Below are positions 39,580 to 51,300 of a DNA stretch of 64,000 bases, in pieces. A program made the position numbers and the translations under genes. This DNA is from Methanoplanus sp. FWC-SCC4 (GTDB lineage: Archaea > Halobacteriota > Methanomicrobia > Methanomicrobiales > Methanomicrobiaceae): the NCBI RefSeq assembly GCF_032878975.1, contig NZ_CP043875.1:1-64000 (forward strand), in the 5' to 3' direction. A model generated the notes under the pieces. The model made no database searches. It was not told the origin of the DNA and was given only the letters and a program-made list of their open reading frames with translations. How positions within the stretch are numbered: position 1 is the stretch's first letter; each line of letters opens with the position of its first letter.

Positions 39580-40464
39580 TCAGAGTGCAAGTTCTTTTTC
39601 TACAGGCTCTGTTCCTGTGATTTCGCCTTTTTCATTGTAAACGGGCTTGTTTACTACTGTTTCCTGTCCGTTTGCCTTGTAGTACAGGTCCCATGCAATT
39701 ACTTCTGTTCCGTCAGGGAGTACTGCAATTCCGTATTCGCTGCCTTTTGTGTCCTTGACTATTTTGTATTCGTATCCCTGCTCTTCACACCATACAGCTG
39801 AGGGGTTTGCCATTCCGGAGATCTGTGATTTTGTGTAATATTCAGGGTTTACTTCAACCGGCTCTTTTCCTGTAATCTCGCCTTTTTCATTGTAAACGGG
39901 CTTGTTTACTACTGTTTCCTGTCCGTTTGCCTTGTAGTACAGATCCCATGCAATTACTTCTGTTCCGTCAGGGAGCACTGCAATTCCGTATTCGCTGCCT
40001 TTTGTGTCCTTGACTATTTTGTATTCGTATCCCTGCTCGTCGCACCATACAGCTGACGGATTTGCCATTCCGATCATGCCTCCGTGAGTGTATGAGACAT
40101 CGGATATCTCCATTTCTTCTATCTCAACAGGTGTTCCCCACTGCTGGACTGTCATTGTGTCCTTCTTTTCTGTTGCAGTGAATTTAACTGTCAGGTTGTC
40201 TTTTTTGAAATAATCGTCGAGGTTTAGGGGCAGGTACTTTGTGCCGTCATCTGCGATGATTCCGTAGAACCCGCCTTCGAGATCTATGTATGTGACTGTT
40301 CCGGTTTTTACGATTTTTTCCGTATCTTCTGTCGGGGTTGCAGGATTTTGATTGTCCTGGCCTGTGCATCCGGCAAACATTGTTGCCATAACTGCTATTG
40401 CTATCAGGAAGACCGCAATTGCAAGGGATTTTTTTGCGGTTCCTGTTCTGATTTTTTCTGTCAT
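39580..40464 (-). CDS. lipoprotein with tandem, recently duplicated DUF333 modules
   Basis: This 294-residue protein has a signal helix with a lipobox (MFAGC), a beta-rich middle and two near-identical 85-residue modules, each containing GMANPSAVWC and KGSEYGIAVLPDGTEV, which is the DUF333 pattern. The DNA repeats are nearly identical too: about 39606-39822 and 39861-40077 align at an offset of 255 bases with only scattered substitutions. This indicates a recent in-frame tandem duplication. Role unknown, surface-anchored. ATG at 40464 is preferred to the GTG at 40473. Confidence 0.75.
   Translation of the reverse strand: MTEKIRTGTAKKSLAIAVFLIAIAVMATMFAGCTGQDNQNPATPTEDTEKIVKTGTVTYIDLEGGFYGIIADDGTKYLPLNLDDYFKKDNLTVKFTATEKKDTMTVQQWGTPVEIEEMEISDVSYTHGGMIGMANPSAVWCDEQGYEYKIVKDTKGSEYGIAVLPDGTEVIAWDLYYKANGQETVVNKPVYNEKGEITGKEPVEVNPEYYTKSQISGMANPSAVWCEEQGYEYKIVKDTKGSEYGIAVLPDGTEVIAWDLYYKANGQETVVNKPVYNEKGEITGTEPVEKELAL
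39606..40077 (-). repeat. near-identical 255-base tandem duplication inside the DUF333 lipoprotein gene
   Basis: Two copies of a segment of a little over 200 bases lie 255 bases apart. They share long exact stretches (for instance TTGTAAACGGGCTTGTTTAC in both, plus-strand reading) with only occasional differences, for example GTC/ATC and AGT/AGC. The period equals 85 codons, so the frame is kept. Confidence 0.85.
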
Positions 40465-40666
40465 GCTCCTCACTGAATAATCATATGATATATTTAATTA
40501 TAAATTCATCCCTGACTTCAAAAAAAATCGAAGTTATAAACGGACTGATCAGATAAATCAGGGTAATATACGGGGTTCAAAAGAATTGGGGATTCATGAA
40601 AAAACCATTGAAATAATTTTGGCGCAATCTCAGATGCAAAATGTGGAGATTTTTTATAGTATTTTT

Positions 40667-42274: not shown

Positions 42275-42299
42275 TGTGTATAACTTTCCGGTTACATGT
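42275..42299. promoter_or_regulatory. operator-like dyad upstream of the PP2C gene
   Basis: A 25-base element with left arm TGTGTATAAC and right arm CCGGTTACATGT, separated by three bases. A copy identical at 22 of 25 positions lies at 46644-46668, after the kinase gene. The arms are imperfect inverted repeats, the form expected for a dimeric HTH protein. It lies 132-156 bases before the PP2C start. Confidence 0.5.
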
Positions 42300-42430
42300 C
42301 CGTAACACACGTATAGTGAATATTAATATATAATTCAAAGCAAAAACTGACAGCATTATATCACAAACCATGCTGACATTACTTTACGGTAAATTCAGGG
42401 CCGGCAGTTTGTGTAAACGGACTAACATAT

Positions 42431-43144
42431 ATGGATTACAGCGGATTATCGGTTGCCGGAAAAAGAGTCTACAATGAAGACTGTTATCTTGCGGTACCTG
42501 TGGGAAACGGCATCCTTCTTGCGGTTGCAGACGGCCTGGGCGGGCATGCTGCTGGTGATGTTGCGTCCAAAATGGCTGTTGAAGTCCTTCGGAGAGTCTT
42601 TTGCGAAAGCTACCGGGACGGGATGAGTGAAACTGAAAAAACGGCGATTCTCAAATCCGCATTTAAGGAGGCTGACGCCCGTATCATGGATGAGGCAGAA
42701 GGTGATCGTCTTGGTATGGGGACGACGCTCGTTGCGGCTTACGTGGAGGACGGTTTTGCAATCGTTGCAAATACTGGCGATTCGCGTTTTTACAAAATGA
42801 GCGGTGATCTGCTTGAACAGATAACCGTTGATCATTCGCTTGTGCAGGATCTTGTCAGAAGGGGCCTTGTTGATGCCGGTTCTGCAAGGTTTCACCCGAT
42901 GAAGCATGTGATCAACCATTCTCTCGGGGGTGATTTTGCAGTGGATGTCTTCTCTGTTCACCTCTCAGAAAACGACAGGATCATGCTTTCAAGCGACGGC
43001 CTGCATGATTACCTTGACAGCGGTCTGATTGCAAAATGCCTCAATTCCGGGAAAAGTGCGAATGAATCTGCAAAAAATCTCGTAAAGGCCGCTCTTGATA
43101 CTTCTGATGACAATATTACAGTAGTTGTAATGATTGTCGGATGA
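42431..43144 (+). CDS. PP2C-family protein serine/threonine phosphatase
   Basis: A 237-residue metal-dependent phosphatase. The motif order is complete: VYNEDCYLAV, VADGLGGHAAGD, GMGTTLVAA, VANTGDSRFYKM, LSSDGLHDYL and DDNITVVV, the Asp residues binding two metals. It is cytoplasmic (no signal or membrane segment). It is followed by the HTH-FHA and kinase genes on the same strand, so it probably reverses phosphorylation made by the kinase at 44160. Confidence 0.9.
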   Translation: MDYSGLSVAGKRVYNEDCYLAVPVGNGILLAVADGLGGHAAGDVASKMAVEVLRRVFCESYRDGMSETEKTAILKSAFKEADARIMDEAEGDRLGMGTTLVAAYVEDGFAIVANTGDSRFYKMSGDLLEQITVDHSLVQDLVRRGLVDAGSARFHPMKHVINHSLGGDFAVDVFSVHLSENDRIMLSSDGLHDYLDSGLIAKCLNSGKSANESAKNLVKAALDTSDDNITVVVMIVG

Positions 43145-43162
43145 GTTTTAAAAAGATTAACG

Positions 43163-43181
43163 AATGTATAACCAATTGGAA
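43163..43181. promoter_or_regulatory. related operator-like dyad before the HTH-FHA gene
   Basis: The words TGTATAACC and GGAAGTT surround the palindrome CCAATTGG, giving the same left arm (TGTATAACC) as the 42275 and 46644 elements and a weaker right arm. It lies 79-97 bases before the HTH-FHA start, a position that would suit autoregulation. Confidence 0.35.
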
Positions 43182-43259
43182 GTTTTCCGTTTGTCTGAAG
43201 CGGAAAACCCGTAAGCAGAAAAATTAAACTTAAAGATTTATGAAAAATCCGGAGATGAT

Positions 43260-44042
43260 ATGAATATGAATGAGGATATTAGTGAAAATACGATTGCTAT
43301 CTCAAGTGATCCAGATTTTTATGAAGATTTGTCTGAATACCTAAACGTTCTCTCAAACTCTACCAGGCTTAGGATACTCAAACTTATTGAGCACCATCCA
43401 AAAGAAGTCCGTGAGATTGCAAGGGAGATTGACACGAGTTACGAGAACACAAAAAAACACCTTGACAAGCTTTTAAAGACGGGAATTGTCAAGAAAGAGG
43501 CAGGAATGGGGAGGCAGACATCAAAGGGCAGCCTTCCGGTATGGAAGTACTCGATGATCTCCGGCGGAATGGAGAGCATAATCCGAAACTTAAGCATATT
43601 CAGCAACATCGATGTAAGAATCGGGGAAGAAGAACTCCGTTCAAAGATCGATGAGGTGAACGGGCTTCTCGCATCGGAGTACGGCTCTGATATACCTGTT
43701 ATTGTCATCCTCGGCGGTGATGAGGACGGGAAGGCATATCCGCTCAAAAAAGATGAAGTCAGGATCGGACGTGAGGATCTATCGTCCCCTGAATATGCTG
43801 CATCAGAGTATGCCATTGTTCTTTCGGCCGGTTATGAGGCGGTAACAAGGGTCTCAAAACCTCACGGCAGGTTTGTCCTTAGAAATGGGCAGTGGTATTA
43901 TGAAGACTGCAAAAGCACCGGCGGTACGTTTATCAACAACAGGCAGATTCCTCCCGGAAAGGAAGTTCCGGTTAATAACGGGGATATGCTTGATCTGGCA
44001 CGCGGTGCAAAGGGTGCAAGGTTAATCTTCAATATGACCTGA
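43260..44042 (+). CDS. ArsR-type HTH regulator fused to an FHA domain
   Basis: A 260-residue protein with two parts: an N-terminal winged-helix domain of ArsR type (LSNSTRLRILKLIEHHPKEV, then YENTKKHLDKLLKTGIVKKE, residues about 28-85) and a C-terminal forkhead-associated domain (EVRIGRED, VSKPHGRFVLRNGQWYYEDC, STGGTFINNRQI, residues about 170-258). FHA domains bind phosphothreonine, so DNA binding could be switched by a phosphorylated partner. Position between PP2C and the kinase makes this the likely output of the module. Start ATG at 43260; a second Met follows two codons later. Confidence 0.85.
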   Translation: MNMNEDISENTIAISSDPDFYEDLSEYLNVLSNSTRLRILKLIEHHPKEVREIAREIDTSYENTKKHLDKLLKTGIVKKEAGMGRQTSKGSLPVWKYSMISGGMESIIRNLSIFSNIDVRIGEEELRSKIDEVNGLLASEYGSDIPVIVILGGDEDGKAYPLKKDEVRIGREDLSSPEYAASEYAIVLSAGYEAVTRVSKPHGRFVLRNGQWYYEDCKSTGGTFINNRQIPPGKEVPVNNGDMLDLARGAKGARLIFNMT

Positions 44043-44159
44043 GGTCTGTACGGAAGTATCCGGCGTTTTGGATAACATTTCTGCCGGATAAATTGTTTGC
44101 AGCAGAAAATATCAGGAATATAACATTAAGGCAGGAAACCGGGCTGACAGGTATTTATT

Positions 44160-46595
44160 ATGGGTGAAGGATTCAGGAATTCTCTGAATGAGAATAAAAG
44201 ACATGTTTCAGGGTTTTTCCCGTTCATTGTACTTTCACTCGTATTATTTTCAATCTTCATACTTCCAGCCGCTGCCGGAGAGATAAGTATTGGAGACAAT
44301 CATTATCTGACCATAGGTGATGCCCTGAATAGTGCATCCCCCGGGGACACCATTTTTGTAGGCAGCGGCAGTTACGATGGGAATTTTGCAATAAATAAAC
44401 CCGTCCAGCTTATAGGTATTGATTCAGGCGGGGGAATGCCTCGTATTGATACTATGGCCGGTGTCGCGGGACTGACACTGAACGCCAACAATATAGTTAT
44501 TGAGGGGTTCAGCATATCCGGGGATTCGGACAGTGCAATTCTGGTAAATTCCAATGATAATCTTATAATAAAAAATGATATTACAAAGACACCTGTAGGA
44601 ATAACGGTTTATTCGTCATCTGGAACAGTTCTTACACAGAACACTATAAGAGGGCACAGGGTCCGCCTTTACATAGACAAATCCGAAAATATTGAAGTTT
44701 ATCTGAACAATTTTGAGAACATAATCAATGCCAAGTCGCTTTCGCCGTCTGTCATCTGGTCTACCCGGATGTCTGAATATTATTACGGGGGTATGAATTA
44801 TACTTCAGGTCTTGGAAACTACTGGAATGATTATGTCGGTATTGATAATGACGGAAACGGGATCGGCGATATCCCTTATGATCCTTATCAGACCTCTGGT
44901 CAGAATAATCTGACCTCAAATCAGCTTTTTAGGGACAAAAATTATCTGAATACTATTTCATCGGGAAGTATCTACTGGGATAATATGGTGCTTACAACAG
45001 GGTACCTTATTGACAAATATCCCCTGGTCGAGCATAACTCGATGTACATCCCGGTGTTTGATTTTAAAACCGGTGAGATATATTCTCAAAATATAACCGG
45101 CGGCTATGCTTTTATAAGGGGTGACATAAATCCGGAGGGTGCGTGGTGGCTTGGACAGTCCCCGTTTGAGATAATATTTGTGATGTTTCTGATCTCAACC
45201 GTCTCTGCCGGTCTTCTGGTGCTTGTTGGCGGCACAGGTTCGCTTCATTCAGTAAGACGTACCCGTAAAAGTGAGATATTCTTCTTTACCGCAGGTTATT
45301 CCCTGCTTGCCGTGGCGCTTTTGTACGCGGTTATCTCATATGTCTCCTTTCCCTTCCTGTTCTTATCGCAGGATCTCATGATAATTCAGCTCATGTTTGT
45401 TTTCATGACGACATATCTTGTGTCTTCCTCGTTATTTCTTGGGATTGGGTTTGCGAAATCAAAGGTTCCTGTTCTTCTTAATGCAATCCACGGATATCTG
45501 GCAGTAATCTCCGCCCTGCTTTTCATCTTTATATACATGGCCGGGGGAGCAGGGTTTGATCCTGTAATAATGCTTGTATACCCGTCTGTTCTGATTCTTT
45601 CAGGGCTTATACCGTTTGTCTTCAGGCATCTTTTCAGGGACAGTTTCATGGGATGGAAGAAGGACAAAAAGCGGATAATCCGTGACACCACCTGGATTCC
45701 CTCACGTGATCCGGATTCAACGCAGGTATTTCCGGGAGAGGAGGATATCATGAACTCTTCGCTTGGAAGTTCGTATTTCCCGGCTTCGTTAAAGGAGAGG
45801 TATGATCATGTGGAGTTTGTCGGAAAGGGGGGGATTGCAAGAGTCTTTAAGGCTGTCAGGAGGACTGACGGGCAGATCGTTGCAGTGAAGGTTCCGATAA
45901 GCTTTGATGAAACAACAGGCCGTCTTTTTATGAAGGAGATGAGGATATGGGAGGATCTCGATCACCCGAATATAGTGAAGCTTTACTCGGTGAACATTCT
46001 TCCTGTGCCTTTTGTCGAGATGGAGTTTGTGAGAAAGTCACTTTCGGATGTTGAGCTTCCTCTTTCAAAAAGGGAAGCGGTTTCCATCATTGAGGGTATT
46101 GCCGAGGGACTTTCCTATGCACACTCCCGGCACATAATCCACCGTGACATAAAACCGCAGAATATTCTCATTTCGGATGACGGGACTCCGAGGATTACAG
46201 ACTGGGGTCTTGGAAAGATTATGGGAGACGGGCATGAGACGACTGTTGTCGGCTTTTCACTGAATTATGCGGCACCAGAGCAGATTGCACCAAAAAAATT
46301 TGGAAAGCCGGATGAGAGGACTGATATATACCAGATCGGTGTTTTGTTCTATGAACTTCTTATCGGAATGAGGCCGTTTTTTGGTGTCGGTGTCGGTGAG
46401 ATGAGTGATGAAATAATGAACAGAATCCCGATGAAGCCTTCAGAGAATAAGCCTGAGGATATCATTTTTGATGACATCATTATGAGGATGCTTGAAAAGG
46501 AGCCTTCGATGCGTTACCAGAGTGTTGAGGATATGCTCAGGGATTTAAGGGCACTTGAGGACAAAATCCCTGATGAGAGTCAGGGACATTTCTGA
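44160..46595 (+). CDS. membrane Ser/Thr protein kinase with NosD-like extracellular beta-helix
   Basis: An 811-residue protein. After a signal sequence comes a NosD/PbH1-type right-handed beta-helix (residues about 45-220; LTLNANNIVIEGFSISG, SNDNLIIKNDITKT), an extended external region to about 335, then six or so membrane helices (about 345-500), and a cytosolic Hanks-type kinase domain (about 545-800). The glycine loop GKGGIARVFKA is near 555, HRDIKPQN near 661, the DFG motif is replaced by DWG (near 680) and APEQ follows. Catalytic Asp and Lys are kept, so it should be active. The outside part may sense an envelope or carbohydrate signal. Confidence 0.88.
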   Translation: MGEGFRNSLNENKRHVSGFFPFIVLSLVLFSIFILPAAAGEISIGDNHYLTIGDALNSASPGDTIFVGSGSYDGNFAINKPVQLIGIDSGGGMPRIDTMAGVAGLTLNANNIVIEGFSISGDSDSAILVNSNDNLIIKNDITKTPVGITVYSSSGTVLTQNTIRGHRVRLYIDKSENIEVYLNNFENIINAKSLSPSVIWSTRMSEYYYGGMNYTSGLGNYWNDYVGIDNDGNGIGDIPYDPYQTSGQNNLTSNQLFRDKNYLNTISSGSIYWDNMVLTTGYLIDKYPLVEHNSMYIPVFDFKTGEIYSQNITGGYAFIRGDINPEGAWWLGQSPFEIIFVMFLISTVSAGLLVLVGGTGSLHSVRRTRKSEIFFFTAGYSLLAVALLYAVISYVSFPFLFLSQDLMIIQLMFVFMTTYLVSSSLFLGIGFAKSKVPVLLNAIHGYLAVISALLFIFIYMAGGAGFDPVIMLVYPSVLILSGLIPFVFRHLFRDSFMGWKKDKKRIIRDTTWIPSRDPDSTQVFPGEEDIMNSSLGSSYFPASLKERYDHVEFVGKGGIARVFKAVRRTDGQIVAVKVPISFDETTGRLFMKEMRIWEDLDHPNIVKLYSVNILPVPFVEMEFVRKSLSDVELPLSKREAVSIIEGIAEGLSYAHSRHIIHRDIKPQNILISDDGTPRITDWGLGKIMGDGHETTVVGFSLNYAAPEQIAPKKFGKPDERTDIYQIGVLFYELLIGMRPFFGVGVGEMSDEIMNRIPMKPSENKPEDIIFDDIIMRMLEKEPSMRYQSVEDMLRDLRALEDKIPDESQGHF

Positions 46596-46643
46596 GTTCC
46601 TCCCTGATTTTTTTTATTTTTCATAGTCTGATTAATTTAATGT

Positions 46644-46668
46644 TGTGTATAACCGGCCGGTTACATGT
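46644..46668. promoter_or_regulatory. operator-like dyad downstream of the kinase gene
   Basis: Second copy of the element at 42275-42299, identical at 22 of 25 positions. The central part TAACCGGCCGGTTA is a perfect 14-base palindrome. It is 49 bases past the kinase stop. Confidence 0.5.
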
Positions 46669-46731
46669 ACGAATGAAATGCATTTGTTTCATTTATTATA
46701 CCCTTTGACAATCTATTATTCAGGGTGGTAA

Positions 46732-46771
46732 GGAAACCAGGGGGACAAAGAGTTTTCCCATTGGTTTTTCC
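46732..46771 (+). other. hairpin in the region after the kinase gene
   Basis: GGAAACCA pairs with TGGTTTTTCC (two-base bulge), and inside it GGG pairs with CCC around a loop that includes CAAAGAG. It may be a transcript end or part of a structured RNA. Confidence 0.3.
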
Positions 46772-47478
46772 GATGCGCCATCCCGATTAAGTTTTGAAAT
46801 ACCGGAGGTGATGTGTTAGTATTGAAAGAGAAGGCCATCATTTTAAAAGAAAACCTGAACGAATCTATTCGTTAACAATTTGGTATGATCAAAAATCCAA
46901 TAGAATTAACAAAAAAGGCAACCAGAAAGCCAAATGCAAAATATATACAACCACAAATGAACGGGATACTCCTCTGATATCCAAAAAAACGGAAAAAATA
47001 AAGAAAAGATCGACTCGAAGTTTGCATAAATCCAATATCGACAGGGGTTAATGTTCCCTGATATGAGGAATTGTGCAGGATGTATTTTTTCCGTTTTTGA
47101 AATTTTAAAAGAGGAAAGATCAGTCAGAAAATATCTTGTCCAAACCAACCCGACAAACCAAATAAATTTTTTTATCAGGCGTGAATGAAATTTGTCTCCG
47201 ACGCCTCTGTTTTGAAGCCTGAATTTAAAGGACCTGACTTTTAAGAAAGGTTCTGTTTTTTTTGCATATATGGTCTAACCGGGAGATTAAACCTCATAAT
47301 CCCGGGTATTCTATTCATATATAACGCCGTGGTCTGAAATTTATATTTAGGGAAGCACGAAACTCTCTGATGTCTGGAAAAGCCAGGGGAGAAAAAAGCA
47401 AAAAAAGTTTTTCCCGGGGGCCAACCGGTCCGGCAGATCTTTTCGTAGTCTCCCAAAAAAAATCAGGAGTAAATAATC

Positions 47479-47571
47479 ATGAAACAAATTGAGCTAAAAA
47501 CGGCAGTAATTATTCACATGATCGCACTTATGGTGCTTTTGGGAACAATAGCAATGGCAGGTGCAGCCTGA
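47479..47571 (+). CDS. predicted 30-residue membrane peptide
   Basis: An ATG preceded by AGGAGT at nine bases starts a frame MKQIELKTAVIIHM followed by IALMVLLGTIAMAGAA and a stop. The peptide is a basic start plus a single hydrophobic helix, so it would sit in the membrane or act as a signal-like leader. The ribosome-binding site is among the best in this otherwise empty stretch. A 63-base dyad at 47605-47667 follows shortly after the stop. I know no family for it. Confidence 0.45.
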   Translation: MKQIELKTAVIIHMIALMVLLGTIAMAGAA

Positions 47572-47705: not shown

Positions 47706-47727
47706 CTGTTTAACCGTCCGGTTCAAT
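47706..47727. promoter_or_regulatory. third operator-like dyad, before a lipoprotein gene
   Basis: TAACCGTCCGGTT occurs here; it matches the core TAACCGGCCGGTT of the 46644 element at 12 of 13 positions and lies about 115-135 bases before the lipoprotein gene at 47841. Confidence 0.3.
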
Positions 47728-47840
47728 CACCTAATTGCAGGGATTTGGATCATTTATATCCGGTTTTTGCAAATGATAAAAAATGATTTTCGCCACCGGC
47801 TTTATTGTCCGGAGAAAATTTAAGGGAAATTCCATTAATT

Positions 47841-48215
47841 ATGAATACTAAGAGAATCACTGCCGGAGCACTGGCCATATGTATACTGGCCGGAGCTGTA
47901 CTTGTATCCGGATGCACTTCTGGTGAGCCTGTTGTGGAGACGGGACCTTCTCCGGTGCGGATGAGTGTTGAGGCTGTGCCAGTCCAGGAGAGCATTTTGT
48001 CGAGTCCTGAGACTGAACTGATATTTATGGAGGGGATGATCGATGAGATACAGGAGAGGAAAAAGAATGTTACTGTCCTTTTCAAAGTCTATAACGACGC
48101 TGTAAATGATTTTAATGCAAACAATACAACCGAATTCAATCTGAAAAAAGACGAGTTTTATTATCTTTGCAATGTGGTTGTGACAGGTGAGATTCCTGAG
48201 AGTTCTTCTGTTTAA
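47841..48215 (+). CDS. small lipoprotein, unknown function
   Basis: A 124-residue protein with a signal helix and lipobox (VSGCTSGEP). The mature part is helical and acidic, with EMMIDEIQERKKNV-like amphipathic sequence and no enzyme motif. The ATG at 47841 starts the signal peptide; the frame extends upstream to 47805 but those residues do not resemble one. It lies after the operator-like dyad at 47706. Confidence 0.6.
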   Translation: MNTKRITAGALAICILAGAVLVSGCTSGEPVVETGPSPVRMSVEAVPVQESILSSPETELIFMEGMIDEIQERKKNVTVLFKVYNDAVNDFNANNTTEFNLKKDEFYYLCNVVVTGEIPESSSV

Positions 48216-50854: not shown

Positions 50855-51300
50855 GGAGATATAACTATTAGTGCTCTAATTCAGAGGGGCCGGGAACAAA
50901 GGAAGCCTTCCGGGATTTGATTTTTAGCAACTGCTCGGGATGGCAAAAATATGTTCGTATATACCAACAATGAATTTATAGCAAAAAATCCTCTTTGTTA
51001 AATGCTTAAATAACCCGTTCCCGTCATTTATCTTTACGGTTATACAAATGAAGTGAACCAATTTAACTCATTTATATGTCTCCGGGGTGATGTTATCTCT
51101 AAGGGAGGCAAAAACCCTCCAAAAGATCCGGCATCCCCAAAAAATTTCCGGATTTTGGCAAAACATGTCTCCCCCGCATCATTTGAAAAACCATCCCACC
51201 TATTCAAAATAAATTTTTTTTAAAATCCCCTGGTTAAGACACATAGTGAATCTTTGCGGTTTAATTATTCAGAGTTTGAGAAAAAAGAAAAATATCAGAT
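50855..51300. other. gap of about 450 bases upstream of the antitoxin, with dyads
   Basis: No gene is seen. The gap contains GGAGG-CAAAAAC-CCTCC at 51104-51120 and, directly after, an imperfect inverted repeat at 51119-51158 with arms containing ATCCGG and CCGGAT. The remainder is A+T-rich. Confidence 0.4.
51119..51158. repeat. inverted repeat
   Basis: CCAAAAGATCCGG pairs with CCGGATTTTGG with small bulges around a 16-base loop. It could be a hairpin terminator of the reductase gene transcript or a structured RNA element. Confidence 0.4.

Follow-up and report, generated by a model that had tools for sequence, protein, structure and literature searches.

A Ser/Thr kinase, HTH-FHA regulator and PP2C phosphatase gene set in Methanoplanus and a probable new class of palindromic promoters

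Three adjacent genes and their products

The window analysed here is a stretch of 64,000 nucleotides from Methanoplanus sp. FWC-SCC4 (NZ_CP043875.1, positions 1 to 64,000). It contains three intact open reading frames that are adjacent on the forward strand, in the positions given in an earlier note on this DNA. The first (42431 to 43144) encodes a PP2C-type Ser/Thr phosphatase of 237 amino acids, the second (43260 to 44042) an HTH-FHA regulator of 260 amino acids, and the third (44160 to 46595) a membrane-bound Hanks-type kinase of 811 amino acids with a NosD domain in front. The phosphatase matched PP2C_2 in Pfam (1.2e-12) and contained the metal-binding aspartate motifs DG, DG and DN, which were kept in 18 relatives, along with other PP2C motifs. 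It scored 197.9 of the 230 bits required by the NCBIfam model for Stp1, and thus fell under the cut-off.

The regulator contained an ArsR-type winged helix (43329 to 43556) and an FHA domain (43758 to 43997), and the 2 Pfam matches in a single protein (HTH_5/ArsR 1.2e-07, above its cut-off, and FHA 1.4e-11) bore out the fusion that had been proposed. Neither a BTA domain nor a Zn-ribbon was matched in Pfam. No NCBIfam model scored above its cut-off; the metalloregulator model gave 35.8 of 55 bits, and metal sensing is therefore not claimed. A Foldseek search with the predicted structure retrieved FHA domains, with EmbR (2ff4) at rank 5 and the FHA domain of ArnA (5a8i) at rank 30, and a profile search of PDB sequences gave, as separate matches, FHA domains and a regulator of the ArsR family, EmbR being found by the FHA part only. 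The FHA residues R171, S199, H202, S219-T220 and N226 were all present. The phosphothreonine-binding residues are intact: in an alignment of 50 sequences, R171, H202, S219 and N226 were invariant and position 199 was either serine or threonine, and the canonical STNG was replaced by STGG throughout the family. The recognition helix, TSYENTKKH, was nearly invariant in the HTH-FHA alignment.

Matches to Pkinase (1.5e-43) and NosD (2.7e-17) were found in the kinase, and the AlphaFold2 model consisted of a signal helix at residues 8 to 33, a β-helix at residues 42 to 240 (44283 to 44879), 5 transmembrane helices within residues 335 to 491 (45162 to 45632) and a C-terminal kinase domain (45801 to 46520). 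The signal helix and the topology of the model place the β-helix outside and the kinase domain inside the cell. PASTA repeats were not found with Pfam or NCBIfam, which identified the NosD/β-helix domain instead, and the score against the NCBIfam model for PASTA kinases was 187 bits, with a cut-off of 450 bits. The catalytic residues were identified as K577, HRD (661 to 663) and DWG (681 to 683; 46200 to 46208), and the lysine, the HRD motif and the metal-binding aspartate of DWG were conserved in the alignment, as is characteristic of Hanks-type kinases. The earlier note was correct in that DWG takes the place of DFG, but this is no peculiarity of this kinase: the third position was a tryptophan rather than a phenylalanine in 58 of the 58 aligned kinases, and DWG is thus a trait of the family. 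We rejected the idea that DWG marks a pseudokinase, since it is shared by all 58 relatives and the remaining catalytic residues have been kept.

The ectodomains differed among the relatives: several families had NosD/β-helix domains, others had PEGA domains, and yet others had short or unrecognized segments. This is the pattern to be expected if a shared core of kinase and reader were fitted with exchangeable sensors. With the β-helix being one among several swappable sensors, the suggestion that it senses a carbohydrate signal is unsupported. The residues of the activation loop were variable among the aligned kinases. A candidate juxtamembrane threonine in a DxTxxF/TxxF context was identified in several group-A kinases only; the anchor used by the script was unreliable for the other kinases, for which reason this docking site is treated as hypothetical.

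Distribution of the kinase and regulator pair

Relatives of the HTH-FHA protein were identified in 134 of 199 genomes and in 31 of 38 genera sampled from Methanomicrobiales. Among 393 genomes of the phylum, 64 were positive, all from Methanomicrobiales. The named records were nearly all from this order, including Methanomicrobium, Methanoculleus, Methanoregula, Methanogenium, Methanofollis, Methanolinea and others, while a few metagenome-assembled genomes carried broader or other labels. Methanomicrobium mobile and Methanogenium marinum, which have been cultured, are among the species with relatives. The family has no name in the curated family libraries searched.

We examined the gene neighbourhood in 61 loci, that is, 60 loci plus the window. 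A Hanks-type kinase gene adjoined the HTH-FHA gene in 59 of them, the remaining 2 being truncated by contig ends, and of the 59 pairs, 58 had both genes in the same orientation and one had them on opposite strands. The genome studied here encoded 3 FHA proteins, every one of which was an HTH-FHA protein adjoining a kinase. The trio with PP2C was found in 18 loci, all within a single clade of 21 rows with support values of 98/97, which was assigned to the Methanomicrobiaceae, the family of the window, from the names of its members. At one locus elsewhere (L081), the kinase gene was flanked by a PP2C gene on its opposite side. Neither an unconserved neighbourhood nor a loss of the FHA residues, 2 of the findings that the earlier note named as refuting its reading, was observed. 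The idea of a write-read-erase circuit holds in that the gene set is conserved, but the core unit is the HTH-FHA protein and the kinase, and PP2C belongs to one clade. No description of such a pair in archaea was found in the literature searched, the coverage of which left out most subscription journals, and the pair represents a separate, apparently undescribed archaeal family.

It was also noted that the only other PP2C gene found in the genome (G000:C1:1285048-1286738; L042, L039) adjoins a gene for a protein with a partial match to kinases and without an FHA domain. Judging from their sequences, the 2 probably form a separate kinase/phosphatase pair.

Palindromic promoters and their predicted targets

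The DNA elements previously noted near positions 42275 and 46644 proved to be real promoter elements, palindromes located 26 bp before a TATA box. At the promoter of the operon, the palindrome TGTATAACTTTCCGGTTACATGT (42277 to 42299, forward strand) is followed 26 bp downstream by a TATA-like box (TATTAATA, 42321 to 42328), and a like element was situated 103 to 163 bp before the PP2C gene in 8 of 12 group-A loci. A second promoter (46646 to 46697), located directly behind the kinase gene on the same strand, consists of the palindrome TGTATAACCGGCCGGTTACATGT (46646 to 46668) and the TATA box CATTTATT (46690 to 46697). The 2 repeats agreed at 20 of 20 fixed positions, had no other match in the 2.31-Mb genome when up to 3 mismatches were allowed, and would be expected by chance 0.01 times within the window. 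An alignment of the relatives resolved the repeat into the palindrome TAACC-N4-GGTTA, with the TATA box exactly 26 bp downstream of it, and placed it at the operon promoter, immediately after the kinase gene and ahead of 2 further small genes. Copies with the same layout were identified on the forward strand of the window at 47276 to 47323 (palindrome, 26 bp, CATATATA) and at 47711 to 47758 (palindrome, 26 bp, CATTTATA). A weaker copy with 2 mismatches at 51029 to 51076 (forward strand) was followed by the inverted repeat AAGGGAGGCAAAAACCCTCC, a candidate small RNA.

Among the 31 pairs of AACC-N4-GGTT with a CATTTATA-like box in the 60 loci plus the window, 29 had identical spacing, with none for 3 control palindromes. 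The 16 genomes that contained the module had 72 sites, versus 3 for a reversed-pattern control. No sites were found in 2 genomes without HTH-FHA genes, and 3 were found in 30 further genomes in which the PP2C-type module was not detected; 2 of these were in one genome (G115), where the contig that bears them breaks off within a kinase gene of the same kind. Furthermore, a site was located behind the kinase gene in 18 of 19 testable modules in the clade with the PP2C trio, versus 2 of 36 outside it. A sister lineage contained the half-site GCAACC instead of TAACC, along with the substitution E62V in the recognition helix; this co-change is a single evolutionary event, but in the direction expected. 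We conclude that the flanking elements mark a new promoter class that the three-gene switch probably controls.

The promoter was absent genome-wide from 16 HTH-FHA-bearing genomes of other families, which means that either their sites differ or the binding is clade-specific. A palindrome common to the HTH-FHA proteins of those families was searched for and rejected, there being no genome-wide signal and only scattered similar elements behind some kinase genes. In 4 loci with HTH-FHA paralogues without PP2C (L061, L095, L098, L099), a palindrome resembling AACC-N4-GGTT and a TATA box with other flanks were located directly behind the kinase gene, and their sequences possibly reflect a paralogue-specific code.

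In the genome studied here, sites with at most 2 mismatches were located before the transcript behind the kinase gene, the 30-amino acid peptide and lipoprotein genes described below, the element at 51029, a gene for a 163-amino acid protein with that of an XRE regulator after it, a gene for an exported protein of Ig-like type, an ABC-2 exporter gene and an open reading frame of 88 amino acids. The operon's own promoter had 3 mismatches to the pattern. A scan of the genome at this level yielded 13 sites versus 6 for the control, and weak sites therefore need independent support. The transcript predicted from the 46646 promoter (46698 to 46875, forward strand) contained no large open reading frame, a possible frame of 20 amino acids (46813 to 46875), and blocks conserved in relatives. 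A structured RNA was rejected since the predicted fold was not better than those of shuffled sequences (z -0.44), and no Rfam family exceeded its curated threshold between positions 40000 and 52000. The predicted target of the 47276 promoter is a gene (47479 to 47571, forward strand) for a hydrophobic peptide of 30 amino acids, MKQIELKTAVIIHMIALMVLLGTIAMAGAA, with counterparts of 28 amino acids in L046 and L053. That of the 47711 promoter is a gene (47841 to 48215, forward strand) for a small lipoprotein of 124 amino acids, which matched no Pfam family and had counterparts in the same position in L044, L046, L048 and L053. In genera g5 and g7, the targets (L175, L058, L063, L093) included small exported proteins in which helical segments are repeated (MIxKMQANGVDTTxLETAxExGD, for example) and for which Pfam gave no convincing family. 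We infer that the regulon is related to the envelope on the basis that many of its protein-coding targets are predicted to be exported or membrane proteins, rather than on their known functions.

Tandem units at positions 2230486, 2230859 and 2231178 of the genome shared the promoter, the start TATCAGAGTGTT and the downstream sequence, which provides independent support for the weak promoters of this group; none contained an open reading frame of at least 80 amino acids. The array (L301, G000:C1:2230486-2231500), which has the same promoter geometry, is a candidate small-RNA array. Genus g6 has a comparable multicopy transcript, about 190 nucleotides long, of which 3 genomes together contained 8 copies; it bears C-rich CCTCC stretches and, on the 3' side, an inverted repeat with T after it. 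Conserved, non-coding, multicopy transcripts of about 190 nucleotides were likewise predicted behind the same promoter in L123, L125 and L180 to L183; they contain CCTCC/CCCCCC stretches, and their 3' end resembles a terminator. By their sequence features, the tandem units and the g6 transcripts look like small RNAs.

A predicted phosphothreonine circuit and its alternatives

We consider it likely that the kinase phosphorylates, that the HTH-FHA protein reads the phosphothreonine and switches on a small regulon related to the envelope, and that PP2C resets the circuit, which would make the module the eukaryote-like analogue of two-component systems. The kinase in the membrane would sense a condition of the envelope by its β-helix ectodomain and autophosphorylate, with the juxtamembrane DxTxxF threonine as the candidate docking site. 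The FHA domain would bind this phosphothreonine, or one made on the HTH-FHA protein itself, and binding would alter the activity of the winged-helix dimer. The dimer would act on the TAACC-N4-GGTTA palindromes and turn on the operon itself, the transcript behind the kinase gene, small exported proteins, the ABC-2 exporter and small RNAs. The genes present, their conservation, the domain residues, the layout of the promoters and the co-occurrence are seen directly in the sequences, and phosphorylation, docking, DNA binding, the sign of regulation and the signal are all predictions here. The half-site change as a single event, the other families without sites, STGG in place of STNG and the variable activation loop weigh against this explanation.

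In archaea, a site ahead of the TATA box is usually that of an activator and not of a repressor, and activation is favoured by the location of the site upstream of TATA at a fixed distance. It is unlikely that the HTH-FHA protein is instead a repressor whose release would follow phosphorylation or docking by the kinase. Repression is the mode of action of most ArsR proteins and of Phr, the heat-shock regulator of Pyrococcus, the HTH domain weakly resembles ArsR- and Phr-type repressors, and autoregulation is typical of repressors, but the palindrome ends 26 bp upstream of TATA, clear of both TATA and the start site. We hold it to be still less probable that another regulator owns the palindromic promoters and controls the operon, with the HTH-FHA protein acting elsewhere or mainly via protein contacts. 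The occurrence of HTH-FHA proteins without such sites in other families would fit, yet the sites track the PP2C-type module genome by genome, they occur at the operon as well as immediately after its kinase gene, and the half-site change accompanies E62V. The XRE regulator, the sole regulator found among the targets, was rejected as the owner by co-occurrence: it does not co-vary with the sites and is also present in genomes without them. That the 4.4-kb segment is a mobile cassette, its direct repeats being attachment sites or a target duplication, is most improbable: the repeats, alike at all fixed positions, flank exactly the three genes, but the segment contains no integrase or transposase and has no phage match, the repeats diverge inside each relative while the positions, the palindrome and the TATA spacing are conserved, and the same element is found at unrelated genes elsewhere.

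The best functional analogue of the archaeal module would be PknH-EmbR of Mycobacterium tuberculosis with its phosphatase MstP, which likewise combines a membrane Hanks-type kinase, an FHA domain fused to a DNA-binding domain and a reversing phosphatase, and in which the FHA domain of EmbR is required for the interaction between kinase and regulator (PMC4601284). EmbR has an OmpR-type (SARP) HTH domain and a central BTA domain, whereas the HTH-FHA protein has an ArsR-type HTH domain and no BTA. The module further differs in its near-constant kinase-regulator gene pair, present in up to several copies per genome, its archaeal host and its palindromic promoter class. The ArnA/ArnB network, which regulates the archaellum in Sulfolobales, has been called the first Ser/Thr/Tyr phosphorylation cascade of archaea to be known in some detail (PMC6509490). 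It also includes an FHA protein that acts on transcription under the control of a Ser/Thr kinase, but ArnA is a Zn-ribbon-FHA protein that works with a vWA partner and the phosphatase PP2A, and lacks the HTH fusion, the kinase gene pair and PP2C (PMC6509490, PMC10470591); the neighbours of the HTH-FHA gene are kinase and PP2C genes rather than a vWA gene. Stp1/Stk1 (PrpC/PknB) also has a PP2C adjoining a membrane Hanks-type kinase, but here there are no PASTA domains, an HTH-FHA reader is added, and the kinase has a β-helix sensor and multiple transmembrane helices.

With bacterial two-component systems the module shares a membrane sensor kinase with a variable ectodomain, a DNA-binding reader, autoregulation and a local regulon, but a Ser/Thr kinase, a phosphothreonine reader and a separate phosphatase stand in for His/Asp phosphotransfer. 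More tentatively, the Ser/Thr-kinase/HTH-FHA pairs of Methanomicrobiales may do the job of two-component systems, with an envelope response in Methanomicrobiaceae that includes multicopy small RNAs with anti-Shine-Dalgarno stretches. The set of kinase, reader and phosphatase is compact, and the operator sites predicted for it, along with a putative regulon of about 10 promoters in a genome of 2.3 Mb, open an entire archaeal phosphothreonine circuit to experiment and suggest a physiological role in the envelope for the widespread HTH-FHA family. In addition, we noted that a gene on the reverse strand of the window (39580 to 40473) encodes an exported protein of 297 amino acids with 2 nearly identical DUF333 repeats, the similarity of which points to a recent internal duplication.
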